From NCBI GenBank assembly GCA_019096065.1, contig JAGUCH010000006.1:4980001-5044000 (forward strand): DNA of 64,000 nt, read 5' to 3'. Under the pieces are notes generated by a model that was given only the letters and a program-made list of their open reading frames with translations, searched no databases and had not been told where the DNA came from. The number at the start of each line of letters is the position of its first letter. Position 1 is the stretch's first letter. Below, in pieces: positions 457 through 62,913 of the stretch. The stretch is from Paracyclopina nana (Eukaryota; Arthropoda; Copepoda; Cyclopoida; Cyclopettidae). Both the position numbers and the translations under genes were made by a program.

Positions 457-513
457 GGCTTAGTCTTTCGTCAGTTTTGGATCGTTACATAGTCACGGTA
501 ATTATGCAATTAA
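457..513 (+). repeat. Left terminal inverted repeat of the Harbinger element
   Basis: Starts GGCTTAGTCTTTCGTC and ends in ATGCAATTAA. It matches the reverse complement of 16223-16279 at 54 of 57 positions, differing at 474, 480 and 491. It is flanked on the outside by TAA. Confidence 0.9.
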
Positions 514-620
514 ATACATGGGTACTTAAATACATGGTATTTAAATAGCTTAGCTCATGTATTTAAATAGCCTATGTATGTATTTAAATAGCTTTTATAG
601 GTAATTAAATACATAGTGAA
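514..620. repeat. Left subterminal AT-rich repeats
   Basis: Short degenerate repeats between the left terminal repeat and the transposase start. The palindrome ATTTAAAT occurs at 539-546, 561-568 and 582-589, mixed with AAATACATG units. One ATTTAAAT also occurs near the other end at 16077-16084. Subterminal repeats are common transposase or Myb-protein binding sites in this superfamily, and this stretch also lies where the transposase promoter must be. Function is inferred. Confidence 0.5.
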
Positions 621-653
621 AAATAAACAAATAAAGCAGCTGAATCATTCAGC

Positions 654-3600
654 ATGGAGCAGTTTCTTCATTTCGTCGATGAATTAGAGAAAATTGAGGA
701 CACCATTGATAAATTTGAAAGTGTGTGGAATGTTGTTCAAGTTCCAAGGCGAACAATTGTGGACCGTGAATCTCCTCTAGAATACTACAGTGAAGAAGAG
801 TTCAAGCAACATTTCACGTTTTCAAAAGATGGTAAGCAAGCAATGAATAACTCATTTATGCAGCTAAATGGACTAAAACAGGTAAAAAAGCAACATTCAT
901 GAACATGAGGTGAATATTGGATGCAAATAATAGTCATAAATAATATTAACTTAACATCACAGGAACTTTAATTTGCAAATTCACCCAACCTCCAAATTTC
1001 TAAAAATTGGAGCTAATAAGCATCTAGATGAATCTGCTTTTTAAAGAATGTTCTGTTCAAATCCGTATCCACAAAAATCTGTATCTGCAAAAATCCGTTC
1101 CATGTCGCTCCTTTAATCTATGTCCATGAAAATGGCTACGTGCATGAGTCCAGCTCCACGAAAAAAGCCAAATTTTTTTTATCATTGCATGTGCCTTAAT
1201 TGTCACATATCATTATGTCCCATTAAAAGTAGCACTAAGCCCTAAAAACTAACCTTCTTTAAGCATCCAGTAATATACCCTGCTGGATTGGGGCTACGCG
1301 CATGTGTCCAGTTTAATTATTAAGTTTATATTCTTTGAACATATTAGAATGTTCCATAGCCAATGAGGTAACAAGTCTATATTGTTTTTACTAAGGAAAG
1401 CAAATTGTCACATAGAACAATGGCCCATAGCAAATTGTCACATAGCAAATTGTCTCATAGCATATTGTCTCATAGCAAATTGTCCCAAAGCACATTGGCT
1501 CATAGCACATTGGCTCATAGCACATCTGATGGGCTACACACATGTGTCCAACTCCACAAAAAAGCCCAAAGTTTTTGATCATTATAGTAATTTGTCTCAT
1601 AGCAATTGGTCACATAGCATACTGTTTCATAGAAAATTGTCTCATAGGATTTTGTCTCATGTGTGACAATTTGTTATGAGACAATTTGCTATGGAACAAT
1701 CTGCTAGATGACTTATTGCTATGAGACAATATTCTATGAGACAATATGCTATGTGACAATAAGCTATGTGACAATATGCTATGGGCCATTGTTCTATGAG
1801 ACAATTTGCTATGAGACAATTTGCTATGTGACAATATGCTATGTGACAATATTCTATGTGCCATTGTGCTATGAAACAATTTGCTATGGGACATTATGGT
1901 ATGTGACAATATGCTATGTGACAGATGGGCTACGGGCATGTGTCCAGCTCCATGAAAAAGCCCAAAGTTTGGATTATTGCAGGTGCCTTAATTGTCACAT
2001 ATCATAATGTCCCATTATAAGTAGCACTAAGCCTTATCAAGTAACATTCTTTAAGGACCCAGTAATATACCCTTCTGGATTGGCCTATGCTCAATGTCGC
2101 ATGGCATAGTGTCTCATGGCAAATTTTCACATAGCATATTGTCCCATAGCAAATGGTCTTATAGCATTTTGTCCCATATCATTTGGTCTCATAGCAAATT
2201 GTCCCATAAGTATTTGTCACATAAGCATCTGTCGGCCTATGCTCAATGTCACATGGCATACTGTCTCATGGCAAATTGTCACATAGCACAATAGCCCATA
2301 GCATATTGTCACATAGCACAATGGCCCATAGCAAATTGTCCCATGGCAAATTGTCTCATAGCATATTGTCACATAGCTTATTGTCACATAGCATTTTGTC
2401 TCATAGCATCTTGTCTCATAGCAAATTGTCCCATAGCAAATTATCTCATAGCAAATTGTCTCATAGCACAATGGCCCATAGCATATTGTCACATAGCATA
2501 TTGTCTCATACAATATTGTCTCATAGCAATTTGTCACAGCAGATTGTTCCATATCAAATTGTCTGATTTTTACAGTGTGGATTTACCCTAAGCAGATTTT
2601 AACAGCGCTGATTTTTGAGGAGTCAGATTTAAACAGACATGCCCTTTTAAAAATAGCACACAGACCAACTAGCACTTTTATTAATCAGTAATGGATTTCA
2701 AAGAGCGAAAAACATGGAATTCAAATTTTATAATTCATAGGATTCCTTCACTTGATGGGTCTTTTTGGCGACAAGATATCTGAAGCGTCTCTTGGACTAA
2801 GTTTGGAATACGTGCCTCCAATTCTACGACTTGCTACAACCCTTTTCTACTTCAGAAGTAATGGTTTTTACCGCTCAGTTGGAGCCCAATTCATTGTTCA
2901 GCTCAGGTAGTGGCAGCTTAATAGATAAATTATTTTGTTAATTGAATGCAATTGGTTACAGTCGAGCCACAATCGAGAAAGTGGTAAACAAAGTGGCACC
3001 CATTATTGCAAGTGGAATGAAGGACCATGTTATTTTTCCTGACTTAACTGAGCAAGATGAAATTGCAATGAGGATCTATGAGCAGTACAACTTTCCAGGA
3101 GTAATTGGTGCGCACAAATTTCTTTACAATTTCTCAAAACTCCCAATTGCACAATGCTTCCAGTCGCACAAAAATCCCAGTCACACAAAAATCCCAGTCT
3201 CAGAACACTTCCAGTCACACAACGCTATCAGCCTCACATTGTTCCCTGTTCCACCATTCTCCCTTTCACACAATGCTCCCAGACACACAATGCTCCCAAT
3301 CACCCAGCGCTTCCAGTCGCACAACACTCACAGTTGCAACAACGCTCCCAGTCACTAATGCAATGCTCATAGTCGCACAACATTCCCAGTCACACAAATC
3401 TCCAAGTTGCACAATGCTCCCAGTCACACAACACTCTCAGTCACACAACGCTCTCAGTCACACAACGCTCCCAGTCACACAATACTCCCAGTTGCAAAAT
3501 GCTCCCAGTCACACAATGCACCCATTCGCACAGGACTCCCAGTCCCACAATGCTCCTAGTACCACAATGCTCCCAGTCGCATAATGCTCCCAGTCACACA

Positions 3601-5003
3601 TTGCTCCTAGACACACACCACTCCCAGTCACAAAATGCTCCCTGTTACTCAACGATCTCAGTCACCCTAGTGCTAGTGCTACCAGTCACTAGCACAATGT
3701 TCGCAGCTGCTCACAAAATGCTCCCAGAAGCACAACACTCCCAGTTGCAAAACGGTCCCAGCTGCACAACGCTCCCAGTTGCGCAATGCTCCAATTCATA
3801 CAACTCTCCCAGTCACATAAAACTCCCAGTTGCACATGGTACAACCAGAACCTAATTTCCCTGGAACAACTCCGATAATAGATCATGCCTGGTGCTACAA
3901 AAGACTCAGTACCTGGTAAAACTGGCAAATACACTGTAACTGGAACTTCAATTAACAAAACATAAGCAAGTTTTTAAGCTTGGTTACTCAAGTCTGGAAG
4001 GGAAATGCTACTCTTTTTGAATACTCAATGATATTAAGCAAAATAAATCAATAACTACCAGTACTACCAGGTCACCAAGCACAATGAATTCTAGGTACTT
4101 TGCATTTTGAAGCACCAAGTACAGTCCATCATGACAGTAGTTCCAGGTGCAATCTGTTTCAGTAGTTCCAAGTGAGATGTGTTCTGGTGGTACACAGTAA
4201 GATTCCCACTCAATGATTTCACTTTGGATGCTTTCATTTTTAGTCATTTCACTCTCGGCATGGTTACACTTTTTAATGATATATTCTTTAGACATTACCC
4301 TCTTTGAATATTTCCGTCTATGGATATCAACATATAAATCAAACTTTCTCTTTTCATTTGAGGGATTATTGATGGGACCTTGATAAAAATCAGCTTTCCA
4401 TTGTGGGCCAAAAAAGAACATCAAGAAAAGTACTACTGTCGAAAGGGTTTTCCTGCATTGAATGCCATGGCTGTTTGCAATGATCAACTCCAGTTTACAT
4501 ATTTTTCGGTGAAATACCCAGGTAGTGCGCACGATTCAAGGATCTTCAATGAGAGCATGCTCAAAATAATGCTGAATGAGCAATTCGATGCCAAGAAGCC
4601 AAAATTTTTGCTATCAGATGAAGGAATCAACACACAAAAAGTTGTGTTGTCACCTATCAGGCAAGACAGGGTGAGAACAACCCCTCAAAAGCGCTACAAT
4701 GATGCACTAAAAAAGCCTCGATGCATGATTGAGCGCACGTTTGGAGGATGGAAAAAAGCATTCCCTATCATATTGTATGGCATTCGAAAACGCAAACTCG
4801 AAAACCTCATGTCAGTTATCTATGCAACTGTTGTTCTGTACAACATCATGAAAAAATTGAATGAACAGGATCCAAATCTGCCTGATGACATAAGTGAAGA
4901 AATGTTTGAAAGGATTGCTGCAAATTCTTCTGATTCATCAGAAACAAGCGATGGTGATTCAAAATATTATCAGAATTTGATAATAAACAATTTCTTCTCA
5001 TAA
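654..5003 (+). CDS. PIF/Harbinger DDE transposase (HARBI1-like), 4 exons
   Basis: Predicted transposase of 381 residues that cuts and reinserts the element. Exons: 654-881, 2776-2906, 2962-3107 and 4363-5003. Every junction is GT...AG and the phases join without a stop; the acceptor at 2774-2775 is weak. The N-terminal part has the family pattern ESPLEYYSEEEF. Exon 2 to 3 gives a helix-turn-helix-like stretch ending SRATIEKVV. Joining exons 3 and 4 restores FPGVIGIIDGT, the first catalytic Asp (codon 4371). The second Asp is in GSAHDSR (4533) and the Glu in MIERTFGG (4731). Length is close to the usual 350-400 residues of the family. Introns 1 (1.9 kb) and 3 (1.25 kb) are filled with minisatellites. 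One departure: where relatives have a GDSGY-type motif, this protein reads LLSDEGIN. The frame looks intact, so the enzyme may be functional. Confidence 0.87.
1399..1930. repeat. 15-bp minisatellite, two halves in opposite orientation
   Basis: Imperfect 15-bp units of the type CATAGCAAATTGTCT run forward from about 1399 to 1660. From about 1662 to 1925 the same unit runs as its reverse complement (TATGAGACAATTTGC type). The array lies in intron 1 of the transposase. A conserved sequence, GGGCTAC..CATGTGTCCA, interrupts or flanks it at about 1289, 1529 and 1926. Open frames rich in SHSIL or CYETI here are only repeat translations. Confidence 0.85.
2090..2560 (+). repeat. 15-bp minisatellite, second block
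   Basis: About 30 units of the CATAGCA..TTGTC 15-mer in one orientation, still in transposase intron 1. The leader before it (about 1990-2090) is a diverged copy of the sequence at about 1195-1285. The block and its leader therefore look duplicated as a unit. Confidence 0.8.
3140..3850 (+). repeat. 17-bp minisatellite in transposase intron 3
   Basis: Roughly 40 degenerate copies of a 17-bp unit (TCAGTCACACAACGCTC type). The 17-bp period is exact at 3437, 3454 and 3471. The array lies wholly between the donor at 3108 and the acceptor at 4362. Because 17 is not a multiple of 3, all three frames translate into similar Ser/His/Thr/Pro-rich repeats that are not genes. Confidence 0.85.
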
Positions 5004-5086
5004 AAATATTATTTAGCTACTTAGTTAGTTACTTATATTGACTAAGCCGGTTTACACCTGTTTTCTCAACAAACTTTACATAAAAC

Positions 5087-7320
5087 TCAATTATCCCAGC
5101 GGAGAACGGGGTGATGAATTAGCATCAAATTCTTCTTAACATATTCGCCCTCTCCAGGAAGTTGGGCAGCTTTACTGGGGGCAGGGATCCATTGGCTTGA
5201 TAATGCGGTACTCCGTGTGAGCTGCACGTTGAAAGATGGCATAGCATTGGCCCTGACGATAAACAATGCGATACATGTCACATAATCATTATTGTGGAGC
5301 CGGGATGTCAGGCGTCCCATGGCAAGTTCAGCACGGAAGTTTTCCATCATGGCCAGCACTGTAAAATGCGTGTGCTGGTCAGCCAGATGGCCCAGTTGTC
5401 CACACAACTTGCAGCAATGATGCAAAACAGGGCAAACATCCCCTATGTGACTGTTCTTTTGGCAGAAGTTGTAGCAACACACCAAATCAAAAGGATTAGC
5501 GGGGCAATCCTGCATCGCGTGGGATTCTTTACCACAGCTGTGGCAGCAATGGGGAAATGTTTTGCCTCTCCTGCCGAACATTAACATACAGTTATAGAGC
5601 TCCCGCTTTACATCTTGGGATAGAACGTAGGGGCATCTGGTCCATTGATGTTTGTTTGAAAAAGATTTAATTGCCCCCGAACTACCCCTGGTGGAACTGC
5701 TGCATCTGCGTTACAAAAAGGGGACATGCGCCGTGTTGAATAGATTCATTGCGGTCAACATCGAAAAAGGTGTCGTGCATAAACCAGTTACCATAAGGCC
5801 TCGCATGCACATCTGTCAGCGAGCAATTGGGGGCGATGTATCTTTCAAGCTGAGGCACTGCAAGGCGATAACATGCATTATGCGTATCACGTTGGTGTGA
5901 TTACCCATTCTTTCGATTGCGGCAGAGTGCAATGCAAGGACTTGAAGCAGTTCAAATATCATGGCTGCGTTGAAGATTTTGAAGAGCTGCATGTCCAATG
6001 TCGAATTGTCAGGGGTGTGGTAGACTGGCGATCCAAGTTGCTCGGATAAGTGTGCGGGGTCCATGCCTGCTTGCACATATACCGCTACAGGGGGAAGATG
6101 CCCTTAAAATGCTGCGGCCCTTTTCTAAAAGTTTGCAGTTTTGCGGCGGCGACCGAAATGGTGTTAAACGCGACGCGAGTGGATCTTTCCATATCAGTTT
6201 AGCAAAGATCTTTTGCTGACAAAACACAGAATTGATCAGCGCATTCAAATCCATCACAATTACCTGTAAAGAACCTTTTTCGATCAATGGCGAGTGGGCA
6301 ATTTGGTGCGGGATTTGGCCCAGTTTGACCCTGCTTGTGGGACTGCACCGACTCAACATCAGAAAACTCGTCATCAGTCTGGAGCACGATCTCATCTTCA
6401 TGTGGCACCTCGGGCAATGTGGTGTGCTACTGCACAACCTTTTTTAATCGTTCCATGTTGACAGGTTGGGAGATGCGCGTTGAAGGGCCAGGCGAGGTTT
6501 GAATGGTTTCCGCCACTTGTCGCCATTGTTCTCATGAGCAGCTGGCATACTAATAATCTTAACTCGCGCTACCGGGTTATGGGTTGTTGCTCGACCACTA
6601 ACAAACCGAGCAGCTTGGCCATACCGAATCATGCCCTATGGTGCGAGCGTGATCTCCCAAGTCTGATCCGTAATCCCTTGAATTTGTATGCCCGCTTCAG
6701 TTAGTTTGTCGTATTGCTCCTGCAGCACGGAATACTCCATGAGCGCGCAACCTAAGGTGTCAGCCTCTGTGGCCAAGCTATGCGTAGCCGAGTCATAAAT
6801 GTGAGGCACTTGATTAGGATTAACCAAGTTACCTGCGATACCTGACACTTTTCCTTGCTCGTGGGAAGCCTGCTGAGCTCAACCTCAACCTCGGATGCAG
6901 CTCTAAGGGCCCCCGTGGTCGGAGTCTTGATGTGTGCTGCCAAGTGTCGTAGCAAGACTGTTTTCCCTTCATGAGCCGCCAGCAGATGACCAAGCGATTG
7001 GTACGAGATGTCGCTCAGCCTTTGTTCCATGGCCTTGGCTTTGGTTGCCTGATTGGATGGTGGCAGAGTGGGGTCCTCGTTGTGCTTGATGCAGCCTTCA
7101 ATCCACAGGTTGAACACCTCAGGGTGGCAGAGGGCAATGATTTTGCTCACCATCTTATTTTCTGCTAGGAGTGTGTCGCGCTAGAAATTTGTTTGTTGAT
7201 CAGCATTACGTGCGTTTTTTGTCAATTTTCTGGCGAGATCCACCATACAGACATAATTTTCGTTTGTACCCGCTACATATACATTTGGATTACTGTAGAG
7301 GCTGCGGACCATTTTGAAGT
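5087..7320 (-). pseudogene. Decayed zinc-knuckle gene of unknown family
   Basis: A minus-strand coding remnant lies between the 3' ends of the two transposon genes. Protein-like frames follow each other from about 7311 down to 5087, broken by several frame changes and in-frame stops, including TAG at about 7183, 6636 and 6410. The last frame (5587-5087) has zinc-knuckle motifs: a classical C-X2-C-X4-H-X4-C (CHSCGKESHAMQDC), a CX3C variant, and a CX2CX4HX4H variant (CKLCGQLGHLADQH). Such knuckles bind nucleic acid and are typical of Gag-like and cellular nucleic-acid binding proteins. The middle part has a helical stretch near 6050-5900, and an acidic segment is read near 6410-6340. Base composition is richer in GC than the flanks, which suggests a foreign origin. 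It could be a retroelement gag, a captured viral gene or a host gene fragment; I cannot name the family. Confidence 0.55.
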
Positions 7321-7375
7321 CACCGGTTATCAGTTTCAACAATTGAGTTATATTTACTGATTGTAATTTTTGAAT

Positions 7376-10300
7376 TCATAGATCATTGAATACATTTTCA
7401 AGCCTAACAGCTGACGAAGTTGAGCTTGGTTGTCTAGAAATATTGCCAAGACATGGATCTTGATGAAAATCTGAAGTCTTAAGGGCTCGCTCATATTTCA
7501 AACGATTAAGGCCAGCCCTGTACTTGGCATCAAGATATTCTTGCTCAGCTTTTTTCTCCTCAAACATAGCTTTGCGCAAATATGATTCAGCTGTCTGTGC
7601 CTCTGCTACTGCTTTCCTCTCCTCTTCAGCCGCCTTTGTAGCTTCTGCCTCTGCTTTAATTGTAAGTGCCTATAAGAGGATATTCAATCATTTTGTTCAC
7701 ACTCAGTCAGCAATTAAAAAATCATATTACTTTAGCTTTTTTCAACTCTTCCTCTTTTATTTGAAGATCAACTTCTTTTGGCTGAGCTAAGATGTGGGCA
7801 ACATCTTCAAGAATTTGGTCTCTCATCTTCCTCCTTGGACCTTTCTTTCGGTTATTGGGAGCTAGAGTTAGATTCATGTTTTGAAAAAAATCACATATCA
7901 AAATAAATTGTCAGCTATACTCAGTCAACATGTAAATTCAAAAATGCTTGATTTATGCTTGGATTAATTCTTCAAAATTTGGCCTGATGGCTTAAGTTGT
8001 AATCTGAAATAACTCTGTTTATGGGCTTTTCTCATTATCAAATTGCTATTAGTGTGTCTGTCATCACTAAATGCATAAAATGAACAAGGTTGACACACCC
8101 TCTCACATTGATAAAACCTACTTTTGTTCTGAAATTATCATTTTTCCCGAAGTGCCCTCTGTTTATGAGTGCAGTGCCATCTAGGTATGATTTGGTATAA
8201 GCAAAGCTTGAGTGAAGCATTGCAAAATAGAAACATTAAATAGGTAAGAAGACCTTACGTGTGATTGGCGCCGCTTCTTCAACAGTTTTTGGAACCTCAG
8301 AATTGACATCTTGAGATGTGTCAGCAAAAGCTGCTGAGGGTCTCTCAAAGATGTCATTTAACCCCTCTTGTCTTAGCCTTTGTGGGTTGGTCCTTCTCTC
8401 TTCGGATTGTCTGTCTTTTTCCAAGCTTTCCACTTGCACTTCTTGTGAAGATTCTAAAAGAGTGAAACATATATACTCCTTCCTAAATATACTAAAAGCC
8501 AAGATACTCCAGTACACTTTAAGGTGCTATAACCTTCAAATTCAGAAAACAAGTCAAAGTTTACCTATATTGTTTGCAACAGAAGTGCTGGATATTCCAT
8601 CAGGAATATAATCAATTTCATCAGTGATGCAAGCATTCGGGGCACCTTTGGTTTGTTCATCAGCAGGAGCAGTCTGAAGAAGAAGAGATAGCGATATTAG
8701 AGTGTCACCAACACCAAGAATCGCTCTGATAGTTATTCAGAAAACGTGTAATTTCCTAGAAGTGCAAGATGCAATGTGTTTTGTAGCGCAAGGTGCTGTA
8801 TGTGTTGGGAGTAGTGTTAGGGAATATGCATTCTGGTATAACAAAGCATGATCCATAGCTGTAACAGCTTCATTATGGATGATACATTCTGGTAGCGCAA
8901 GGGGACTCCTATGCCAATTACAGTCCTTGGATAGACTACGACAAACTGGACTTAGATTGACAAAACAAATCAGCCTTGGATCGACTATGAGAACACAAAA
9001 TCCTTAGATAGACAAAGACTGACTGTACTTGGTTAGACAAGAAAAACACACATTACCTGGATAGACAAGATAAACTGTCCCAGGACTGACAACAAGAATG
9101 CACAGTCGTTGGATCAACAAAATGAATCATCCTCAGGTCTACATATTGGTATCAACTCATTAGGTATGTCTGTGTCCACAAAAATATGTGCTGTTATATT
9201 CCGTTCTGTTATAATCGGTTAATCGGTTTGGTAAAAATCCGTTCTGTGAAAATCTGTTCAGTCAAAATCATCTCAATTAAAAACCATTTTGTTTGTCCAG
9301 CCTATTTTTCAGTAGCATGACAACAAAAGAGTTATGCTGTTGCACGCGCATCTTTTGATAATAGCTGATGCTCAATCACTGTTGCAACTTTTAAAATTGA
9401 ACTCACCAAACCTTCTAAAGAAAACGACCACCCATATGTATTTGAGGATTACCGTAAACGGATTTTTACAGAGCGGAATATAACAGCACGGAGCTTTACG
9501 AAATGGAATGTAACGGCATGGATTTTTGCAGACACGGATTTGAACAGTACATTCACTCATTATCTTGGTCAAGCTTAGTTAGTCAAGCTTGGTAAGTCTA
9601 GCTTGCGCTTGGTCATCCAATAAATCATAGTTATTTTTTTTGTATTCTCAGTAGTATCATGTTAGTTCCAGTCTTTCCAGATACAGTTCATTGTCAAAGT
9701 TGATTCAAGGATGATCCGTTTTTCAATGCAGGTACAGTGTGTACCGCTAGTCTATCCAAGTACAGTTCGTTCTAGTTGACCCAGGTCCTTCTCTGTCATG
9801 ACTGTCGATCTAAGTACAGTCCTGTCTTGTCGATCCTTGGATAGTGTTTTCTCATAGTCAGTCCAGGGATGATCTGTTTAAGTCTATCCAGGAAGAGTAT
9901 GTTCTAGTCGATACAAGTACGGCTGCCCGTGCTAGGCGTGATCCATAATTGTAACAGCAAGTCGCACCCAAAAAGTGTCTCCTATAAAGAATGCCTCTGA
10001 TGTTGATGCAAATGCAATTCTCCCATTTCATTCAAAAAAGAACTCTAACAACATAATTGTGCTCAACCATCAAATTGTTTACCTATGAAGACTGCTTTTG
10101 GCGATGAAAAATATTTAGGTGGCATTCACTGTCATATTCAACCTCATGAGTGATGTCAACTTGATTGAACACATCCAGTTCACGCTCTTCCTGGTCATTA
10201 AGTGGTGGGTGTGGATTGTTGCCACCCCCTGTTTTTTTCCTTCCCTCTTTATTCTTTGATCGCTTAACCTTCAGTCGGGCCATTCTAGTGCAAAATAATA

Positions 10301-11223
10301 TCAAATATTCACAAAGTTATTCAACAGAGAGCAAGTCACTCAAATTTGACATGGTTTCTGTGATGCTCAAAGTTTAGTGTTGCACGTGTCTCAGCGTAGC
10401 AGCATTTTCATGAACATACTGCTCTTACTGATTGAGTCATAGAAACAGGTTATGCGCTATGGTTAATTTGACCAATTTTATACGCACTTTTAGTGCAACA
10501 GTGCAGCCAGCCCATACCATTTCTCAAGAATGAATCAATATGTTGTAATATGTTTGCAAAAACAAAAGTGTGTAACCCACTCTTTAATATTTTACCTTGT
10601 ACGCCATCGATTTGCTAGGTTATCCGCTGATATCATATGACCTGGCAAGAAAAAATGACATAGCATTTAAATAAATAAATAGAGAGATAATTTCATGGAT
10701 TGAGAAAATTACATCACTGTTATGAGCAAGCTTTTGTGCTGCAACTTTGAAGTGAGACTTTCCTCCACTGGACTAATTGCCCACAAAGTATTGATACAAG
10801 GCCCCCAGGGGCTTTCATGGAAGCTCAAAACACTTGTTTCAAGGCCTCCTGGAGGCAGACAAATTGATTTTTTAGTTTTACTAAAGCACTGTGTTATGTT
10901 TTTTATGGCCATCATCATGATGCTAAAGATGTAAGGAAATCATTGCATATATTTCATGAAATATGAAAATAACATTATTTCACATAGCTCATTGATACTG
11001 TCTCTGATTCATCAAAAGGGCGCACTAATTACCCTAAACCACAGAGACTATAAATAATTAAAAATAAATTACCTGTCAAGGCAACATATTCAGCAGTGAC
11101 TTTAACCCAAAGTTCTTTTCGCAATTGTTTATTGCTGATTTTGCCCATTGAATGCTTCTCATATAAATCCACCACAAGGTCATAGTTAAGGTTAGCTGAT
11201 TTAGGACCTGACTTAGGAGGCAT
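7376..11223 (-). CDS. Harbinger Myb/SANT-like accessory protein, 7 exons, one in-frame TAG
   Basis: Second gene of the transposon. In this superfamily the Myb/SANT-like partner binds the terminal region and brings in the transposase. Exons on the minus strand: 11223-11073, 10641-10596, 10284-10083, 8673-8565, 8453-8259, 7861-7731 and 7669-7376. All junctions are GT...AG and phases agree throughout (1128 nt, 376 codons). Exons 1-3 give the zeste/Myb-type domain: N-terminal SGPKSANLNYDLVVDLYEKH, the split helix ADNLANRWRTRMARLKVKRS, then a TGGG spacer and PPLNDQEERELDVF. The C-terminal exons are charged and helical, with a likely coiled coil from EEEERKAVAEAQ-type sequence to LNRLKYERALK. The one defect is a TAG as the last codon of exon 3 (10085-10083), directly before the splice donor. 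It would truncate the protein to about 130 residues unless bypassed. Confidence 0.75.
8847..9958. repeat. Nested inverted repeat array in an intron of the Myb-like gene
   Basis: The left arm (about 8925-9120) carries degenerate GGATAGAC units. The right arm (about 9750-9920) carries the reverse complement, GTCTATCC. Inside these lie a second pair of inverted arms, about 9180-9225 and 9455-9500, sharing GCTGTTATATTCCG. Near-identical GATCCATA..TGTAACAGC occurs at 8847-8868 and 9937-9958 in direct orientation. The structure sits in the intron between exons 3 and 4. It may be an independent foldback element or another bipolar minisatellite. Confidence 0.6.
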
Positions 11224-11582
11224 CTGAAAACATGAATTTTCAGTTATACTCTACAAGTGGAAACAAAAACTTTGAATAATTGGGTGAAGACAAGGTTGGG
11301 GAATATTTTTTGCCCAAAAATCTAGTTGTAAAATCTCTGAAAAGTTGAGTTGTTTTATGCCCAAAAAGTTGAGTAGCACTATGTCCGACCAATTATGCAC
11401 AGTTGTAAAAATGTCCAAACTTGCCTAGTTGTACTATCTCCAAAATGTTTTGAAAACCTATGCTGATTGTGAAATTTTAAAGCAATGCGGGCAGTAATGA
11501 GACTCTTTCCTACAGCATGTTCTTATGACTGCTACACAGCACATATTCAGTGTATGTTGTTGGAGTCCACCACCAGCAGGCT
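11224..11582. other. Upstream region of the Myb-like gene, degenerate repeats
   Basis: No gene seen. From about 11300 to 11450 there are loose repeats of AAAAGTTGAGT and AGTTGTA..ATGTCC. The stretch contains the presumed promoter of the divergently placed Myb-like gene, but I see no clear core promoter motif. Confidence 0.4.
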
Positions 11583-13620
11583 TAAGTTTCAGTGGATCCT
11601 CCTTAGCTTGGCCATTGAGACTGTGTACCCAGGTATCAGTGATTTCTCTACCAGGAAAAGTTGTAAGCCAATGACTAACCATCATTCACAGACGTACCCC
11701 AACAGCTACCCCTGAGCATTACAATCTGTAGAAGTGAATGCTATCTTATATTCCTGATCTTGTAAAAGTCATTAGTTTCAGTACTGGCCTAGTTTGAACA
11801 TTGAGACTGTGTACCCAGGTATCACTGATGTATCCGCCAGGAAAAGTTGTTAGCCAATGACTAACCGTCATTCACAGACGTACCCCAACAGCTACCCCTG
11901 AGCATTACAATCTGTAGCAGTGAATGCTGTCTTATATTCCTGATCTTGTGAAAGTCATTAGTTTCAGTACTGGCCTAGTTTGAACATTGAGACTGTGTAC
12001 CCAGGTATCACTGATGTATCCGCCAGGAAAAGTTGTTAGCCAATGACTAACCGTCATTCACAGACGTACCCCAACAGCTACCCCTGAGCATTACAATCTG
12101 TAGCAGTGAATGCTGCCTTATATTCCTGATCTTGTAAAAGTCATTAGTTTCAGTACTGGCCTAGTTTGAACATTGAGACTGTGTACCCAGGTATCACTGA
12201 TGTATCCGCCAGGAAAAGTTGTTAGCCAATGACTAACCGTCATTCACAGACGTACCCCAACAGCTACCCCTGAGCATTACAATCTGTAGCAGTGAATGCT
12301 GTCTCATATTCCTGATCTTGTAAAAGTCATTAGTTTCAGTACTGGCCTAGTTTGAACATTGAGACTGTGTACCCAGGTATCACTGATGTATCCGCCAGGA
12401 AAAGTTGTTAGCCAATGACTAACCGTCATTCACAGACATACCCCAACAGCTACCCCTGAGCATTACAATCTGTAGCAGTGAATGCTGTCTTATATTCCTG
12501 ATCTTGTAAAAGTCATTAGTTTCAGTACTGGCCTAGTTTGAACATTGAGACTGTGTACCCAGGTATCACTGATGTATCCGCCAGGAAAAGTTGTTAGCCA
12601 ATGACTAACCGTCATTCACAGACGTACCCCAACAGCTACCACTGAGCATTACAATCTGTAGCAGTGAATGCTGCCTTATATTCCTGATCTAATAAAAGTC
12701 ATTAGTTTCAGTACTGGCCTAGTTTGAACATTGAGACTGTGTACCCAGGTATCACTGATGTATCCGCCAGGAAAAGTTGTTAGCCAATGACTAACCGTCA
12801 TTCACAGACGTACCCCAACAGCTACCCCTGAGCATTACAATCTGTAGCAGTTAATGCTGTCTTATATTCCTGATCTTGTGAAAGTCATTAGTTTCAGTAC
12901 TGGCCTAGTTTGAACATTGAGACTGTGTACCCAGGTATCACTGATGTATCCGCCAGGAAAAGTTGTTAGCCAATGACTAACCGTCATTCACAGACGTACC
13001 CCAACAGCTACCCCTGAGCATTACAATCTGTAGCAGTGAATGCTGTCTTATATTCCTGATCTTGTAAAAGTCATTAGTTTCAGTGCTGGCCTAATTTGAA
13101 CATTGAGACTGTGTACCCAGGTATCACTGATGTATCCGCCAGGAAAAGTTGTTAGCCAATGACTAACCGTCATTCACAGACGTACCCCAACAGCTACCCC
13201 TGAGCATTACAATCTGTAGCAGTTAATGCAGTCTTATATTCCTGATCTTGTAAAAGTCATTAGTTTCAGTACTGGCCTAGTTTGGGCATTGAGACTGTGT
13301 ACCCAGGTATCACTGATGTATCCGCCAGGAAAAGTTGTTAGCCAATGACTAACCGTCATTCACAGACGTACCCCAACAGCTACCCCTGAGCATTACAATC
13401 TGTAGCAGTGAATGCTGTCTTATATTCCTGATCTTGTAAAAGTCATTAGTTTCAGTGCTGGCCTAGTTTGAACATTGAGACTGTGTACCCAGGTATCACT
13501 GATGTATCCACCAAGAAAAGTTGTTAGCCCTGAGAATTACAATCTGTAGCAGCAAATGCTATCAGTGCTGGCCTAGTTTGAACATTGAGACTGGTACCCA
13601 GGTTTCACTGATGTATCCAC
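11583..13620 (+). repeat. 186-bp satellite, about 11 copies
   Basis: The marker GAGACTGTGTACCC recurs at 11617, 11803, 11989, 12175, 12361, 12547, 12733, 12919, 13105, 13291 and 13477, a spacing of exactly 186 bp each time. The next marker is at 13587, after a truncated 110-bp unit. Interior copies are nearly identical; the first and last are more diverged, the usual sign of unequal exchange within the array. Each unit contains the short inverted repeat AATGAC-TAACC-GTCATT. No open frame of note runs through it. Confidence 0.95.
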
Positions 13621-13946
13621 AATGCCCTTGCGGCAACCTCAACCTTACCCGTTCCAATGCAGCAACCTCTCCCCTTCTGTTGCGTGACCTCAACCTTTCC
13701 CTTTTTTTATGCAGCAACCTCATTCTAGCCCTTTTCTGATGTGGGGTCATTACCCTTTCCGATGCACAACGTCGACCCTGCCCTTTTTTAAATTTGGGGC
13801 TACGCGCATGTGTCCAGCTTTAGAAAAAAGTCAAAATTTCTATGAAGAGAGTCCCCTAAATTGTCACACATTACGATGTCCCATAACATCTGGCTGCATG
13901 AATAATTATAAAGTAACATTCTGTGCTACATCAGGCTACATGGGCC

Positions 13947-14735
13947 CACACATAATGTCACATAGCATTCTGTCCCATAGTATTTTGTCTCATAGCATTC
14001 TGTCCCATAGCATATTGGCTCATAGCATAATGTCACATAGCATAATGTCTCATACCATATTGTCACATAGGAATTGTCGAATAGCATTTTGGCTCATAGC
14101 ATAATGTCTCATAGCATAATGTCTCATACCATATTGTCACATAGGAATTGTCACATAGCATTTTGGCTCATAGCATGATGTCTCATAGCAAATTGTCACA
14201 TAGCACAATGTCACATAGCATAATGTCTCATACCATATGTGCACATAGTGAATTATAAAAAAGCCAATTTAACTAAGCATGCTAATATGCATATTGTCTC
14301 ATAGCATGTTGTCACATAGCATTATATCCTATGAGACCATTTTGCTATGTGACAAATGCCTATGAGACAATTTGCTATGAGACAATTTGTTATGTGACGA
14401 TTTGCTATGAGCCAATATGCTATGTGACATTGTGCTATGTGAAATTGTGCTATGTGAAATTGTGCTATGTGAAAATATGCTATGAGACAATATGCTATGA
14501 GACAATATGCAATGTGACAAATGCCTATGAGACAAATGCCGTTGAGACAATTTGCTATGAGACAATTTGCTATGAGCCAATTTGCTATGTGACAATATGC
14601 TATGAGACATTATGCTATGAGCCAAAATGCTATGTGACAATTTGCTATGTGCCAATATGCTATGATACATTATGCTATGAGCCAATATGCTATGGGACAT
14701 TATGGTATGTGACAATATGCTATGAGACAAGGTCC
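13947..14735. repeat. 15-bp minisatellite, second bipolar array
   Basis: The same CATAGCA..TTGTC 15-mer as at 1399-1930. It runs forward from about 13947 to 14325 and as its reverse complement from about 14330 to 14735. The leader at about 13796-13880 and the reverse copy at about 14843-14872 carry the GGGCTAC..CATGTGTCCA flank seen around the left arrays. Two such arrays therefore lie in the left and right parts of the same transposon. Confidence 0.85.
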
Positions 14736-14939
14736 TTTTTTCAAATCAGTAAGTATAATATAACCTTGTAGCCTTATTGGCTATGGAACATTTTGTTATG
14801 TTCCAAGAATATAAAACTATTAGATTGCAATTTTTTTGTAAAGCTGGACACATGTGCGTAGCCCAATTTGGCGACCTCCACCTCCATTTTTACTAAATAA
14901 ACTTAAAGAGAGGACAAAAAAATCCGCAATTTTGCGCTT

Positions 14940-15830
14940 GTTCCTTTCACGTAACCTTTTCTGATGCAGCAACCTCAACCTCACCCTTTTATGATGCGGC
15001 GACCTCAACCTCACCTTTTCAGATAGGCCAACCTTGCCCTTTAACTTTCTTATGCGCAACCTTGACCTCGAACTTTATAATGACGCGACCTCGACCTCGA
15101 CCTCGCCTTTTTCTGATGCAGCAACCTCGATCTCACCTTTTCAGATGAAGCGACCTCAAACTTTCAGATGCGGCGACCTCGACCTCGCCCTTTCCTATAA
15201 GGTGGCCTCAACCTCGCCCTCTTCGATGCGGCGACCTCAAACTTTCCAATGCGACGACCTCAACCTGTCCTTCTAAGTTATGGCGACCTCGACCTCGAAC
15301 TTTTCAATGCCGCGACCTCGACCTCGTCCTTTCCGATGCGGCAACCTCGACCTTGCCCTTTCCGATGTGGCGGCCTCAACCTCACCTTTTCCGATGCGGC
15401 GACCTCAGCCTTGCCCCTTTCTGATGCGGCGGCCTCAACCTCGCCCTTTTCGGCGACCTTGACCTCGAACTTTTCGATTCGGCGACCTCGACCTCGTCCT
15501 TTCCAATTTGGCGACCTCGACCTCGCCCTTTCCGATGCGGCGGCCTCGACCTCGCCGTTTCCAATGCGGCGACCTCGACCACGCACTTTTCAATGCGGCG
15601 ACCTCGACCACGCACTTTTCGATTCGGCGACCTCGACCTCGTCCTTTCCAATTTGGCGACCTCAACCTCGCCCTTTCCGAAACGGCGGCCTCAATCTCGC
15701 CCTTTCCGATGCGGCGACCTCGACCTTGCCCTTTCCAATGCGGCGACCTCGACCTCGCACTTTCCGATGTCGCGACCTCGACCTCGAACTTTCCGATGTT
15801 GCGACCTCGACCTCAAACTTTCTTGATGCA
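14940..15830 (+). repeat. 29-bp GC-rich minisatellite
   Basis: About 30 units of a 29-bp repeat with core GCGGCGACCTCGACCTCGCC followed by CTTTCCGAT. The period is exact at 15481, 15510 and 15539. Weaker copies also appear before the 15-bp array at about 13625-13790. Since 29 is not a multiple of 3, all frames translate as Arg/Pro/Ser-rich low-complexity sequence; these are not genes. CpG content is much higher than in the flanks. Confidence 0.85.
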
Positions 15831-16222
15831 CTTGATATTACATATTGAAATGCGCAAACTTGCGAGTTGCGAGAACGAGAAGCGAAACATGTGTTGATTG
15901 TTGTATCAGCTGACGGCCGACGGCGGCATTCAGTTTGAAAATAACAGCGCAACCTCGGTATCCTCAACAACAACGCTGCTTACTTAACTTTGTTGTTATA
16001 GCTTCTATGAGAGGCATTACTTGAAAACATTTTCGTGATTTCTGTGTTGATGATCTGGTAGACATAGTCACACAGTATTTAAATACATTTTGCAATAATG
16101 TAGCAGAAGACAGAACAAAAGTTACATAGTCAGCCATGCACTGTTTATTATGTTATACAGAGTACATAGTCACTTATTTTGCTTCAATGAAATGACAGAC
16201 TCAGGCTGACTATCAAAACTGC
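15831..16222. repeat. Right subterminal region with ACATAGTCA repeats
   Basis: The 9-mer ACATAGTCA occurs at 16062-16070, 16124-16132 and 16164-16172 in the same orientation, and once inside the left terminal repeat (487-495). The palindrome ATTTAAAT is at 16077-16084. These are candidate binding sites for the transposon proteins. No gene is seen here. Confidence 0.5.
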
Positions 16223-16279
16223 TTAATTGCATAATTACCGTGACGATGTAACGATGCAAAAGTGACGAAAGACTAAGCC
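16223..16279 (-). repeat. Right terminal inverted repeat of the Harbinger element
   Basis: The reverse complement starts GGCTTAGTCTTTCGTC, as at the left end. The next three bases outward (16280-16282) are TAA, matching the left flank at 454-456. Confidence 0.9.
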
Positions 16280-16282
16280 TAA

Positions 16283-34600: not shown

Positions 34601-37166
34601 TTTCGGAGAAAAACCAGAGTGCATTCGAACCAAAATTCAGTCATTGCTAAGCCAGAAAAAAGATTGCTTTTAATCCTTATCAAATATGCATTAGTTTAGG
34701 TTTAGGATTTTATAAGAAAGATTTTAAGCTGACAAGTATGTTTTATTTTTGGATTTTTGGATACAGCAGTAGTTGAGTCACTTTTGAGGGTTGGAGTAGC
34801 CACTGTGCTTCTATCTTCCACCAGAGCTCCTTTAGAACCTCTTCTTCCTTTTAAGAGGCTCTTCAAACTTCAAAAACTTTCGTCATCCTTCTACGAGTGC
34901 TGCTATGGTAGTAGCTTGGCCGCGAAGTCATAATTCCGCGACTGCACAAATGAAGTTTTCTGCTGGTGCGTTCTTCTTCTTGCCTCAGCATGAATTGAGG
35001 CTGAAAAGTGGTAATTTCACGACGACGACAAAATTAATGAGGGTCCAGAAAGCAATGAAGAGGAAATGGGGGCCCATTAAATTCCTCATTTAACCCAAAT
35101 AGGTTTCGTGAGCGAAATTGCATTTTTCCGTGACATTTTCGAATAAATTGTCACCTTGGCGGCTTAAAACACACACATTATCGTCTGCTTAGACCAGCTC
35201 TCATATTTACTATATTCTGCTGGGGGAGAACATCGGACAAATATTATAGAGGCAAACATTTGCCCTTTCACCATTTAGGAAATGGATCACGTCCCACTGT
35301 CTATACTGGCTGTTAGGATATAAGTATGCCTCTGAGGTCAAGATGCCTTGCATCGATCATAAATCATGTTTCTGAACTGTAGTATCATAATGCAGGTACA
35401 GCGATAATTGGGCCTACTTCCATTCCTTTCAATGTTATGCATGTTATGGTGTTTTTTCCAATCAATTTCTGCTATAGTTGACTCCCGATGAGCTATTACT
35501 CTACTGCAATGTACATACATATAAATAGGTTGAAATGGAACAGATCTTTCGAAAATTGAGTGACTGAGCTGAGGTCCGTTCTCATTTCAGGAGGTGCTAA
35601 AGTGCGCACGAAAGCAAGAGCAGCGCAGGTTTGCATCCTTCTTCTCCGGATTCCCAAACATGATGAACCGAAGCCACAATGGTGGCACTTCCATACCCAT
35701 GACCTCTCCTCCCCAGCCTCCAATGACCTCAGCTCACTCAGCAGGTGTCAACCTGAATGTTAACAACTTGATGGGGAACAACTTGCATGCAGCGGCTCGC
35801 AGCCAGGGAATGAACCACATCGAGGCCGCGGAGATCACAAACCTCATCGAGGACGCGGGTCACACCACATACTTCATGAACAGGGATGGGTGCATGGAGA
35901 CAACCACTGCACCTGTGGATGCCTTGCCAGCAGCAATGTTGATGGGTGGTGGTTTACCTCCACCCCCACCCCCACCTCTCGGAGCAGTTCCGGGAGCTCC
36001 CAATGTGATAAATCCTCAAGGCATCAAAAGCCTCGTTCATGATGTGCAGCTCAAGCGACAGAAGGAGATTCGTGATTTGATGAAAAAGAAACGCGAAAAA
36101 GCTGTTTTGGTCGACCGGATCTCACGTTGGCTCTTCCCCACCAGCTTCATCTTGCTCAACATTGTCTACTGGGCGCTCTTTGGTGACCATGACTTGTGGT
36201 AGACTGCAACATGCCTCGCTCTTCTTCTTTCCATTGACTGTTTGAACGGTTTTATAATGGGTCACACTATTTTGACAAATTGCATGAGATCCACTCCATT
36301 GTAAAATCCTTACGAATAATATCACGTACACGCTGTATTTGATTGCTGCATTATTGGCTTGGAAGTACCTTAATTACAAGGAATAAAATGCTGATCTGTG
36401 TTAAATAAGAAATTGAGTAGCTTTTATGTACCCTTGGTTAGCTTAGCTCAGGGACTTAATCTGTGGACGTTCAAAATGCCACTTTGTAGCATGACAAGCC
36501 TCAGCTCTTGATCCTCTCTCATTTCAGGAAGTGATAAAGTATGCGAGAAAGCAAGAGCAGCGCAGGTTTGGATCCCTGTTCTCGGGATTATCGAGCATGA
36601 GGAACCGGAGCCACAATGGTGGCAACTCCATACCCATGACTACAAAATACCAGCAACAGCATCCATCGACTCCAGGAAACGCTGCCAACTCCGCTGGCAT
36701 CAACCTCAACGTGAACAATTTGATCACGAACAACACCTGCATACACACTCAAAACCAAGCAGTCAATCACATTGCAGCCAGCGAGATCTCACACTTGATC
36801 GAGGATGGTGCCTCCACCACGACATATTTCATGAACAAGGATAGCTGCTTAGAGACAACCACCACAGGATTACCTGACAATGCCTCATCCATGCTGCTGG
36901 GAGCTGGCCTACCTGCTGCCCCGCCCCCGCCACCTGGAGCAGTTCCGGGAGCTCCAAATGTGATCAACCCTCCCAGTATAAAGAGCCTCGTTCAAGATGT
37001 GCAGCTCAAGCAGCAGAAAGAGATTCGGGAAGTGATGAAGAAGAAGAGAGAGAAAGCCATGTTGGTCGACAGGATTTCACGTTGGCTTTTCCCCACCAGC
37101 TTCATCTTGCTCAACATTGTCTACTGGGCGCTCTTTGGAGACCACGAATTATGGGAATTGAATTGA
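28662..37166 (+). CDS. pHCl-type Cys-loop chloride channel subunit, first exon missing
   Basis: Subunit of a pentameric ligand- or pH-gated anion channel of the plasma membrane. Exons: 28662-28804, 30516-30583, 32905-33131, 33371-33453, 33513-33647 and 33851-34269, then either 35591-36202 or 36528-37166. All phases agree, giving about 561 or 570 residues without the first exon. The extracellular part has a Gln-rich start after a hydrophobic LLSCVLG (probable signal-peptide end), then WRPDSFFKNAKSVTF and the Cys-loop C-PMHFKNYPHDTQT-C with 13 residues between cysteines. A second Cys pair follows (DDC...FTC). Exon 33851-34269 carries M1, M2 with the PAR motif that marks anion selectivity, and M3. 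The sequence resembles the arthropod pHCl/SecCl group more than GluCl or GABA receptors. Subgroup assignment rests on remembered motifs only. The introns contain no further gene that I can support. Confidence 0.87.
35591..36202 (+). CDS. Alternative terminal exon A of the channel gene
   Basis: A phase-0 exon after acceptor CTCATTTCAG, encoding 203 residues and a TAG stop. It begins EVLKCARKQEQRRF and contains a Met/Pro/Asn-rich M3-M4 loop with a run of seven prolines, a basic amphipathic helix (KKKREKAVLVDRISRW) and the M4 segment, ending GDHDLW. A poly(A) signal follows at 36382, so this exon can end a transcript by itself. Confidence 0.85.
   Translation, partial: EVLKCARKQEQRRFASFFSGFPNMMNRSHNGGTSIPMTSPPQPPMTSAHSAGVNLNVNNLMGNNLHAAARSQGMNHIEAAEITNLIEDAGHTTYFMNRDGCMETTTAPVDALPAAMLMGGGLPPPPPPPLGAVPGAPNVINPQGIKSLVHDVQLKRQKEIRDLMKKKREKAVLVDRISRWLFPTSFILLNIVYWALFGDHDLW
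36382..36387 (+). other. Poly(A) signal AATAAA for exon A
   Basis: Canonical hexamer 180 bp after the stop codon of exon A and 140 bp before exon B. Its place between the two exons supports their use as alternative 3' ends. Confidence 0.55.
36528..37166 (+). CDS. Alternative terminal exon B of the channel gene
   Basis: A tandem paralogue of exon A, also phase 0, with the same acceptor sequence, encoding 212 residues and a stop. It is roughly two-thirds identical to exon A by eye: nearly invariant at the start (ARKQEQRRF) and from GAVPGAPNVINP through M4. The middle of the loop differs (KYQQQHPSTPGN, TTTYFMNKDSCLE). It ends GDHELWELN. Both exons look under coding constraint, so neither is a dead copy. 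Confidence 0.85.
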   Translation, partial: EVIKYARKQEQRRFGSLFSGLSSMRNRSHNGGNSIPMTTKYQQQHPSTPGNAANSAGINLNVNNLITNNTCIHTQNQAVNHIAASEISHLIEDGASTTTYFMNKDSCLETTTTGLPDNASSMLLGAGLPAAPPPPPGAVPGAPNVINPPSIKSLVQDVQLKQQKEIREVMKKKREKAMLVDRISRWLFPTSFILLNIVYWALFGDHELWELN

Positions 37167-37858: not shown

Positions 37859-40800
37859 TCACGAGATGTATTCATCCCCTCTTGCGGCTCTTGACCTAGC
37901 ACCATTGGTAGAGGTTGCCGAGGTCACCTTTGCTGAGATCATCACGTCCTCGGGGACTCGATTGCGCCTGAAAAAGCCCAACTTGTACAAGGTGGCCGCT
38001 ATCAGCGAGACAACTACGAGGCCGGCCAACACCGACACCACTATGATCCACGTGGGCACAGTGTCCAGCCCCACCCCATCACCAATGAGGCTGGCATCAG
38101 GAAAGGCCAGCAGTGTGGCCACAGTGAAGTCATCCGCCAGGTTCTCCTGGTGGATGTCAAGCTCTTCAGGTATCTCGAGGTGAGCCTTGGCATGAATGGC
38201 TATGGTGGAGGTCGCAGAACCGAACTCTTCAACCAGAGTGGAATTCCAGACCCTCGACCTCAGACGGATCACCGCGCTCTCATTGGCTTTGAGGCCGCCA
38301 TGGATGCGACACGTGAAAATATGGCACTGGACGACGTTATCGTCTGCACAGTCTAGCACAACGTCTGCTACGGCCTTGGCAGCCTTCATGGCATCGGCAG
38401 CCACTTCTGTCCAATCACGGTTGATCACATTATCACTCGAAGAAGAAGAGGACTCTGACACCTTTCGTTTTTTCCTTTTGGAAATCACCAACTTGTCTCT
38501 TAGGTAAGGCTTGGGTGGCCTTCTATTTGTGTAAAGTGGCGGCCTGCGAACCGCATCGCGGAGGCCGAGAGCGTTCACGCTGCGAGGATTGACAAAACAC
38601 TCTCCAATTCCCGGAGGCGTGACCTCCGGAGCCTCAGTTAAGTAGAGAAGCCATTTAATTTGCGGATTGTCTTTGGAGGCCGAAAACACTCGGTGAGGCC
38701 ACTCGATGAGTACGTTGAAGTCGTCCACGTGCCAAGGCCCATCGTTTGTCACTTGGAAGGTGTGGGTCAGCTTGGAACCAATGTCGGACATGATTCGCAT
38801 TGAGGACTCGGATCGCACAAGCCCGCCGTACCAGATTTGATCTGGCTGCAGGAGCGACCTCATCGACATTTCGGCTCGTTTTATCACGCGGACCTGAAAT
38901 AATGAGCATTGGTTTCAGTGAAAAAAGAACACCTCGTCGGCGGGAGTTGGAAATTGTGCTAACTTTGCGAAAGTAGATTAATGATGTCGGGGCAATTTTT
39001 TGCCATCTCCGCGGAAATTACACTCTGGTCACTCTCGGCCTTTTACAGGGCATTACAGAAATGGGAAGAGGAGCTGCTCTCCAATGTAATTTTGCATCAA
39101 GCCAGAAATTCATGTAGTATGCATTGCAGTATTTTTCGTCTATGATCCCTGAAGGGACTAGAAAAATTTCCCCTGGGACATACTTACACGAAGCTTTGGA
39201 AATTTAGATCTTTTTTTTTGCTAGCAGTAGCCCAAATGCCTGGATTAGCTACGGAGGTCAAAATTGTCTGCTAGCAACAATTTACCCAACAGTTCTTTTG
39301 CAGAAAGTTTAAGCGACCGTTGAGAAACCATGACTCGAGATTGTGGAGTTTTCGAGACTTAACAAATAGGTCAGAAACCGAAATTGGCAAAAAATGACGA
39401 AGCGCTGGCTCGGCAAGCTTCAAAAGGCTCAAGCAATGTATAGAAATTTGATTCCGACATAGCTGTCAATTAATGTCAACTCGCTCAAAATAGTAAATTA
39501 GCAGCCTTCCTCTTCCGTAGCTTTCCAAAACACGTGGCACGTGCTTCTCAAGACGTTCAAGGAATCCTTATAAATGTGAAGTATTCATGTACGAAATTGC
39601 ATTTTGCAAAATTTGTGCTATTCCCCATGGGAGCAGCTTTCCCCTAATTAATTACCTGCAAATCCTGAGAGCGGTCTGAGAGCAAGCCAACATCCTCTGA
39701 GGACGTGTTGGTGACCACACTGAATTTGGCACCTTTTTGCATGAAAGGACTAGACTGGTTTGGCACCACTCGAAACAAGAGAACATCTGTGCGATTGCTG
39801 GCATAGGGATTGCCCAATTTGCATCGCACTCCGAGGCCATGGCCCTTGAAATCGCAATGTATATCAGAGACATCATCTGAGCGGCCGACATATACGAAAT
39901 TCGGGTCAATATGTAGCATTAAATCTGCAGAGTAAGCCGGCTCTCCTTGATTGGAAATGGTTACTGTCAGGTTGATTTCTTGACGGTTTTGCACTTCAAG
40001 CAGACTCTTTTCCGAGTCAAAACCAGGGCCAATATCTAAGCTTGCCCTCAACTTGGAATGGCACAGTTCGTCATCACCACAGGACTCGTGGAACTTGATT
40101 TTGAGAAGTTTCAGAGACTCGGCTCTGTTCAAAACAGGGAAGTAGTTGATATTGCTAACAGAGGATGATTCTCTATGTTGTCGTGGCTCATCCTGGTCCA
40201 GTTTAAGCTTTAGTTCGAATAAAACCGGGGTGCGAAGGTCCACTGTGCCCTCTTTGAGATAGGCAGTTTCGTGGAAGCAGCCTACAAGAAAATGCATAAA
40301 ATCGCTGATCAAAATGCTTACCATAAAAACATCAGCAATCTTTTTTTCTGCAAAACACTTCATAAATTCGTACATTGCCAAGCATTGTAGTACCTGTAAG
40401 TTTTCCTTTTTCGACAAGAACAGTTTTCTCGCTGACATGCGTGGCATTGCTACGTGCATCTCCGAATCTGATTCTGGACACTCTACGCCCTCCTGGGAAT
40501 ATTTCGGCACTCAACGTGTATCTCAGATGGATGGAGGCAATATTGTGGGGGAAATTCTTGATCAGAAAGCAAGACTCGATTGCGAAGCAGAACTCGGACG
40601 AGTAGACGTCTGCCTGGCAACCATTCAGCGAGGGATCAATGGATTTCACGCGTCTATCCTTGAACCACGTGACAATATCGATCACCGGCCTTGACCTCAC
40701 GACAAAGGCCGCGTCCGACGCGAAAGCACCGACCACGATGTCGCTGTGGTTGTTCATGTCCAGGTCGTATCCGCCGCCGAGGCTGTACCCGAAAGTCTTG

Positions 40801-61857: not shown

Positions 61858-62913
<1,056 letters not shown>

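Follow-up and report, generated by a model that had tools for sequence, protein, structure and literature searches.

Can a PIF/Harbinger transposon, a type of element usually a few kilobases long, span almost 16 kb and carry satellite DNA between its ends? The question is raised by a 64,000-nucleotide stretch of the genome of the copepod Paracyclopina nana (GenBank assembly GCA_019096065.1, contig JAGUCH010000006.1), here called the window, which corresponds to C6:4980001-5044000. The genome totals 92 Mb and is assembled into 10 contigs. At window positions 457-16279, a first-pass annotation had proposed an apparently recent, autonomous and unusually large PIF/Harbinger element with about 2.3 kb of coding sequence, the remainder being satellites and a passenger gene. 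We analyzed this element, designated W, together with its relatives in the same genome. W is a large two-gene PIF/Harbinger-type transposon, and its lineage consists of large elements that carry satellites and are not strict about their 3-bp target. Our preferred reading, held with good confidence, is that W is a 15.8-kb, probably autonomous cut-and-paste element and that its lineage owes part of its large size to satellite arrays that move along within the elements.

Borders and genes of W

W spans 15.8 kb between 57-bp inverted ends with TAA outside both. A genome search with window positions 457-516 found the right end on the opposite strand, at 16223-16279, with 95% identity over 57 bp (E 2.9e-18), the two terminal inverted repeats (TIRs) differing at 3 positions. 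The borders, including the target-site duplication (TSD), are listed below; W2, T5, T8 and the other T elements are relatives described in the next section.

454-456, no strand: left TSD, TAA, read from the sequence
457-513, + strand: left TIR, 57 bp, 3 mismatches to the right TIR
510-611, + strand: left subterminal repeats of TTTAAATA type in 15-21-bp units; W2, T5 and T8 carry similar ones at their left ends
16010-16222, + strand: right subterminal region with ATAGTCA motifs, common to W2 (82%) and the T elements (74-75%)
16223-16279, - strand: right TIR, identified by the inverted-end match
16280-16282, no strand: right TSD, TAA, read from the sequence

The transposase was identified by a match to DDE_Tnp_4 (PF13359) at 4362-5000 on the + strand (E 6.3e-25, 88.1 bits against a cut-off of 24.8); the whole spliced protein matched the same domain with E 2.6e-24. 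Its frame runs through four exons, with GT/AG at all three introns, and encodes 376 amino acids (aa) with no stop within it, as the first-pass annotation had stated in describing the frame as kept open. We take D167, D249 and E287 to be the candidate catalytic residues. A PDB sequence search with exon 4 returned two matches, both weak and unrelated by name.

654-831, + strand: transposase exon 1, from splice-frame reconstruction and comparison with the relative on C1
2741-2906, + strand: transposase exon 2, same basis
2962-3107, + strand: transposase exon 3, same basis
4363-5003, + strand: transposase exon 4 with the DDE_Tnp_4 domain and stop codon, from the Pfam match

The second gene, Myb/SANT-like, lies on the - strand, convergent to the transposase, with seven putative exons running from 11223 to 7376 whose inner borders are all AG/GT. 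Exons 1, 2, 3, 5, 6 and 7 can each be paired with a sequence in the C1 relative, where the gene is likewise convergent to the transposase; the match is weak for exons 5 and 6.

11073-11223, - strand: exon 1 with the first part of the SANT-like domain and the ATG (11223); C1 match E 3e-13
10596-10641, - strand: exon 2, end of the SANT-like domain; C1 match E 5e-4
10083-10284, - strand: exon 3, ending in TAG, from its frame and the C1 comparison
8565-8673, - strand: putative exon 4, no significant C1 counterpart found
8259-8453, - strand: putative exon 5, weak C1 match (E 7e-5)
7731-7861, - strand: putative exon 6, weak C1 match (E 0.004)
7376-7669, - strand: exon 7, which includes the stop codon, looks coiled-coil-like by eye and is conserved in C1 (E 7e-23)

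When all putative exons are counted, the two genes contribute 1,131 and 1,128 bp, which bears out the estimate of about 2.3 kb of coding sequence. The 57-bp inverted ends, exact TAA duplication, transposase and convergent Myb-like gene likewise agree with the proposal of one very large two-gene PIF/Harbinger-type element.

Relatives of W in the genome

Searching the 92-Mb genome with the W TIR identified at least 4 places, a lower bound, that form two end pairs. Two of these ends belong to W and two to W2, a 6,267-bp element at C6:5482251-5488517, about 486 kb from W. The left end of W2 is 76% identical to that of W over 160 bp and its right end 82% identical over 270 bp. The two subterminal regions of W are unlike each other, and each resembles the region at the same end of W2, so the ends of W are a genuine left-right pair from one family. 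Apart from W2, no further copy bounded by this TIR was found among these ends (at least 4).

A relative of matching size has other ends. Of the 15 genome matches to W exon 4, which include W itself, the next best was on C1, with 75% identity over the exon, and led to an element of 16,468 bp at C1:12924795-12941262 containing both genes as in W. Its TIRs, 52 bp and 100% identical, were located by a separate inverted-repeat search; the W TIR, sought in this element, gave no match longer than 10 bp. W is very large, as first described, but not unique in its size. The C1 transposase also has four exons, and 265 of 376 aligned residues (70%) are identical to those of W. Between the two, the proportion of nonsynonymous differences (pN) is 0.18 and that of synonymous differences (pS) is 0.77, which is saturated, giving pN/pS of 0.24 (bootstrap 0.19-0.29). 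The saturated pS together with this ratio indicates two old sister lineages, both of about 16 kb, that have both kept the transposase under selection. Long introns are found in W and C1 alike. With its open frame and signature of purifying selection, the W transposase looks intact.

A genome search with the C1 end gave 11 matches, comprising its own two ends and nine others. The loci of these nine comprise five 158-bp copies, a copy of 1,149 bp and three places where several ends are nested or in tandem. At G000:C7:2270005-2270721, two 158-bp copies with C1-type ends lie in the same orientation with starts 664 bp apart, one with a GTT duplication and one without.

A further set of five elements (T elements), of 4.3-9.9 kb, is bounded by different 53-bp ends, GGCCCGATCCG. 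The right subterminal sequence of W matched four of the five by search (74-75%) and the fifth by direct comparison (74%).

C8:4201413-4205671: T8, GGCCCGATCCG ends, examined over its full length
C5:5818980-5827171: T5, GGCCCGATCCG ends, examined over its full length
C1:15260021-15266004: T element on C1, GGCCCGATCCG ends, examined at its ends only
C3:9575386-9585319: first T element on C3, GGCCCGATCCG ends, examined at its ends only
C3:6273792-6279436: second T element on C3, GGCCCGATCCG ends, examined at its ends only

A search for transposase remnants in W2, T5 and T8 gave no match better than E 1.3. W2 would be mobilized in trans by W or a close relative, and the T elements would also move in trans.

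Satellite and minisatellite arrays

The main tandem arrays of W make up 5,178 bp, or 33% of the element, and total tandem-repeat cover is 34% in W, 50% in W2, 29% in C1, 68% in T5 and 50% in T8. W, W2, T5 and T8 have a common order: a left end with TTTAAATA-type repeats, the interior, a satellite of 149-186 bp, a minisatellite and the right end. The minisatellites have units of 14-29 bp, lie 333-578 bp from the right end and contain 49-58% guanine plus cytosine (GC), compared to 41-44% for whole elements. The T8 satellite consists of two units only, and T5 and T8 also hold a 71-bp array. The arrays of W are:

11613-13529, + strand: satellite with a 186-bp unit repeated 10.3 times (97% matches), related to those of W2 and T5
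14954-15814, + strand: GC-richer minisatellite of CGACCTCG type, units of about 29 bp, 57% GC, from the tandem-repeat search
3150-3836, no strand: 17-bp array in transposase intron 3, from the tandem-repeat search

In comparisons against 1000 dinucleotide shuffles, the W satellite was related to those of W2 (z 24.9) and T5 (z 5.8), on the same strand, while none of the other four satellite pairs, including W2-T5, and none of 15 control pairs was significant. Within the genome, the 186-bp unit was found only in W, in W2 and in a W2-like fragment at C6:6542453. The common array order and the relationship of the W satellite to those of W2 and T5 point to an array in the common ancestor. Since a search with the W minisatellite returned, besides W itself, a single weak match on C2, the minisatellites are alike in position and style, not in alignable sequence. 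Taken with the size of the C1 relative, which has a satellite of its own (160-bp unit, 4.15 kb, on the Myb-gene side), these data suggest that great length and internal repeat arrays characterize the lineage and are not a single accident.

Homology between the W and C1 satellites was considered and dropped. Lenient scoring had suggested it, with none of 200 block shuffles reaching the W-C1, W2-C1 or C1-T5 scores (34 of 200 for W2-T5); in a stricter test the scores were reached by 448 (W-C1), 80 (W2-C1), 89 (C1-T5) and 239 (W2-T5) of 1000 shuffles. Outside W, the window also contains a 170-bp tandem repeat (45641-46021, 2.2 copies) that was unrelated to the element satellites in the control comparison.

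Target sites and subterminal motifs

TSDs were counted in 14 copies, namely W, W2, C1, the five T elements and six simple C1-type copies, excluding the loci with nested or tandem ends (L061, L062 and L063). An exact 3-bp TSD flanks 9 of the 14, compared to 5 of 182 mismatched pairings. The duplications are TAA in W, TAT in C1 and, in the others, TTT, AGC, AAC, TCT, ATT, GTT and GTT, so that only one of nine conforms to TWA (with A or T at the middle position), the usual target of PIF/Harbinger elements. Because the TSD letters of the lineage do not follow TWA, the TAA of W alone is no family signature; the TAA flanks cited in the first-pass annotation are an exact duplication, but with several 3-bp targets in the lineage they are not diagnostic. 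The 3-bp length agrees with passages on PIF/Harbinger elements in PMC9710019 and PMC2836001, the latter giving TTA as the target of mPing. Since PMC9710019 describes the TSD only as typically 3 bp, we take the non-TWA target to be a variant trait of this lineage.

Two motifs are clustered near the ends. ATAGTCA, which was picked after inspection of the ends, occurs in the terminal 800 bp at 5 sites in W, 5 in W2, 6 in T5 and 6 in T8, compared to 2, 1, 0 and 0 in the respective interiors. TTTAAATA has 8 sites at the ends versus 1 in the interior of W, 3 versus 0 in T5 and 5 versus 0 in T8. In C1, GGTAACGG is present twice, once in each TIR.

Nested and dispersed inserts

Part of the length of W consists of repeats found elsewhere in the genome and of a decayed insert:

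1291-2563, no strand: 15-bp minisatellite arrays in opposite orientations, of a dispersed foldback-like family, in one or more inserts with provisional outer borders in transposase intron 1
13797-14864, no strand: nested foldback-type insert with 20-bp inverted ends, a palindromic 15-bp array and a 6-bp duplication, AATTTG
8920-9930, no strand: dispersed repeat with inverted arms and CCTTGGATNGACAA-type units, in an intron of the Myb-like gene
5030-7324, - strand: decayed retrotransposon-like piece (the proposed passenger gene), frames broken, with a zinc-knuckle-like part at 5087-5710 by eye

The 15-bp array family had at least 110 genome matches when the best 40 of 109 candidate places were scored, many of the listed cases being inverted pairs, and the CCTTGGATNGACAA-type repeat had at least 49 when the best 40 of 223 were scored. 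The end motif of the 15-bp family, seen at 13797-14864 and 1291-2563, is GGGCTACGCGCATGTGTCCA. The description of the non-coding remainder as satellites therefore holds for the tandem arrays as such, but the 15-bp arrays belong to a dispersed foldback-like repeat.

The supposed passenger gene is no intact gene. Its coding sequence is scattered among several frames, and the piece is 73-76% identical to a retrotransposon-like stretch on C2, with a weaker match on C9. Pfam searches with three pieces of 5030-7324 gave no match over the cut-off. In the C2 counterpart, a 926-aa open frame matches the W piece and overlaps a 188-aa frame that is zinc-knuckle-like by eye, and the adjoining open reading frame (ORF) matches DUF5641 (E 1.5e-12, over the cut-off) and the rve integrase domain (E 0.0082, under it). 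DUF5641 is linked to BEL/Pao elements, and the piece in W is probably a decayed fragment of a BEL/Pao-type retrotransposon, as judged from these sequence matches. At G000:C2:6465525-6471257, the 926-aa and zinc-knuckle-like frames come right after the integrase/DUF5641 frame, perhaps as a gag-like gene downstream of pol, an unusual order if this is one element.

Alternative explanations

Several findings weigh against our preferred reading of W as a probably autonomous element whose lineage carries its arrays along. First, the partner gene is uncertain. Both genes could be traced, as the first-pass annotation had claimed, but exon 3 of the Myb-like gene closes with an in-frame TAG codon that is directly followed by GT; the frame of C1 exon 3 likewise stops, some codons further on, without a GT there. 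Exons 1-3 match Myb_DNA-bind_5 (PF13873) weakly, with E 0.0047 and 17.3 bits, under the cut-off of 21.7. The protein may end at the TAG, with the later exons belonging to another transcript; the real junction may lie elsewhere; or the gene may be damaged. Second, 5 of the 14 copies have no matching TSD: W2 (CAT and ATT), two of the five T elements and two of the six simple C1-type copies. Third, the motifs are not uniform, as C1 has no ATAGTCA site, so that its motif would differ, and enrichment of TTTAAATA at the ends is weak in W2 (6 versus 4) and C1 (1 versus 2). Fourth, C1 has no GC-richer minisatellite beside its satellite, which is not demonstrably related to that of W. Lastly, no near-identical second full copy of W was found in the genome, and when the flanks of W were joined to look in this assembly for an empty site (a single TAA), the only matches were the two flanks already known; for this copy, transposition at the full 15.8 kb is thus an inference. 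The description of W as recent is not supported, given these two negative results, the 3 differences between its 57-bp TIRs and the decay of the retrotransposon-like piece inside it.

The most serious competitor is that a compact Harbinger element inserted here and then swelled in place, through nested inserts and local satellite growth, and never moved as a giant. We regard this as possible, though distinctly less probable than our own reading. It would explain the retrotransposon-like piece, the foldback-type insert with its own 6-bp TSD and the further dispersed repeats. It fits poorly with the C1 relative, which is also giant (16.5 kb), with fully identical TIRs and a TSD, and has long introns like those of W, and with the satellite and minisatellite of W2, T5 and T8, which keep their order near the same end as in W, the W satellite being related to those of W2 and T5, though a direct comparison of the W2 and T5 satellites is not significant.

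A bolder extension of the preferred reading seems to us improbable, if worth stating. The satellite of 149-186 bp and the GC-richer minisatellite near the Myb-gene end could be working transposon parts, kept in place and order through long divergence, perhaps as a binding or chromatin platform that brings together ends 16 kb apart, in which case W would represent a separate Harbinger lineage that is giant, depends on its satellites and is relaxed in its choice of 3-bp target.

That the host has kept an immobile or domesticated pair of transposase and Myb genes, with relic ends around it, is very unlikely. Purifying selection and the lack of a close transposase copy are compatible with domestication, and co-domestication of both proteins is known (PMC9710019), yet W and C1 have TIRs and a TSD, which the domesticated pairs described in passages of that paper are without. 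Two separate elements, or the ends of miniature inverted-repeat transposable elements, flanking unrelated genes by chance would be consistent with TIR-only searches, which alone cannot link ends 15.8 kb apart, but we give this almost no weight given the left and right subterminal regions that each match the corresponding end of W2, the exact TSD, the small number of such ends found in the genome (four, a lower bound) and the same gene content between the ends of C1. An assembly artefact around the satellites is just as hard to credit: tandem arrays are prone to misassembly, but the genome is in 10 contigs and the array order recurs at other places, in W2, T5 and T8.

Neighboring genes in the window

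Outside W, two adjoining similar ORFs of 209 and 223 aa at 35573-37166 resemble, by eye, final exons from Cys-loop receptor genes that have been duplicated. An integrin-alpha-like coding stretch, again judged by eye, lies at 37859-44082 (- strand) and a Runx-like one at 61858-62913 (+ strand), as would fit an animal host whose genome is compact.

Discussion

The preferred reading of W as a giant, probably autonomous element would imply the following mechanism. In Harbinger3_DR, according to passages of PMC9710019, the Myb-like protein recognizes a subterminal motif of 9 bp and also contacts the transposase; by analogy, the Myb-like protein of W would bind the repeated subterminal motifs and recruit the transposase. 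The transposase would excise the whole of W, and insertion would follow at a 3-bp target without strong sequence preference. Nested inserts, both foldback-like repeats and the retrotransposon-like piece, would supply part of the length and may postdate the last move.

W shares with Harbinger3_DR and Ping/Pong, as passages of PMC9710019 and PMC2836001 portray them, a DDE_Tnp_4 transposase, TIRs and a 3-bp TSD, and apparently also a separate Myb/SANT-like gene and clustered subterminal motifs that may be binding sites. It departs from them in the size of about 16 kb common to W and C1, in TIRs of 52-57 bp compared to about 15 bp in the text of PMC9710019, in TSDs beyond TWA and in the satellite arrays inside. 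Transposons of other kinds have already been found to contain satellites (PMC4079207, PMC12628747). Internal tandem repeats able to seed satellites are described for the foldback element Tetris of Drosophila virilis (about 220 bp; PMC4079207) and for oyster Helentron-type elements (PMC7492417); unlike Tetris, which is apparently non-autonomous and foldback-like, and the non-autonomous oyster Helentrons, W and C1 combine arrays with an open transposase frame. At 15 kb or more, W is comparable in size to Mavericks and Teratorn. Unlike Mavericks, with 5-10 ORFs (PMC6431247), and Teratorn, reported as largely virus-derived (PMC5601938), W owes its length mostly to non-coding arrays, introns and nested inserts. 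No giant or satellite-carrying Harbinger was described in the literature searched by title and start of abstract, with some passages of text; this coverage is partial and makes for weak evidence of novelty.

A pair of diverged Harbinger-type elements of 16 kb, both with an open transposase frame, and their satellite-carrying relatives of 4.3-9.9 kb would be suited to the study of how a two-protein transposase handles distant ends. The same lineage would allow one to ask whether cut-and-paste elements give rise to satellites, move them and maintain them, and its loose choice of 3-bp target bears on site selection in the PIF/Harbinger superfamily.

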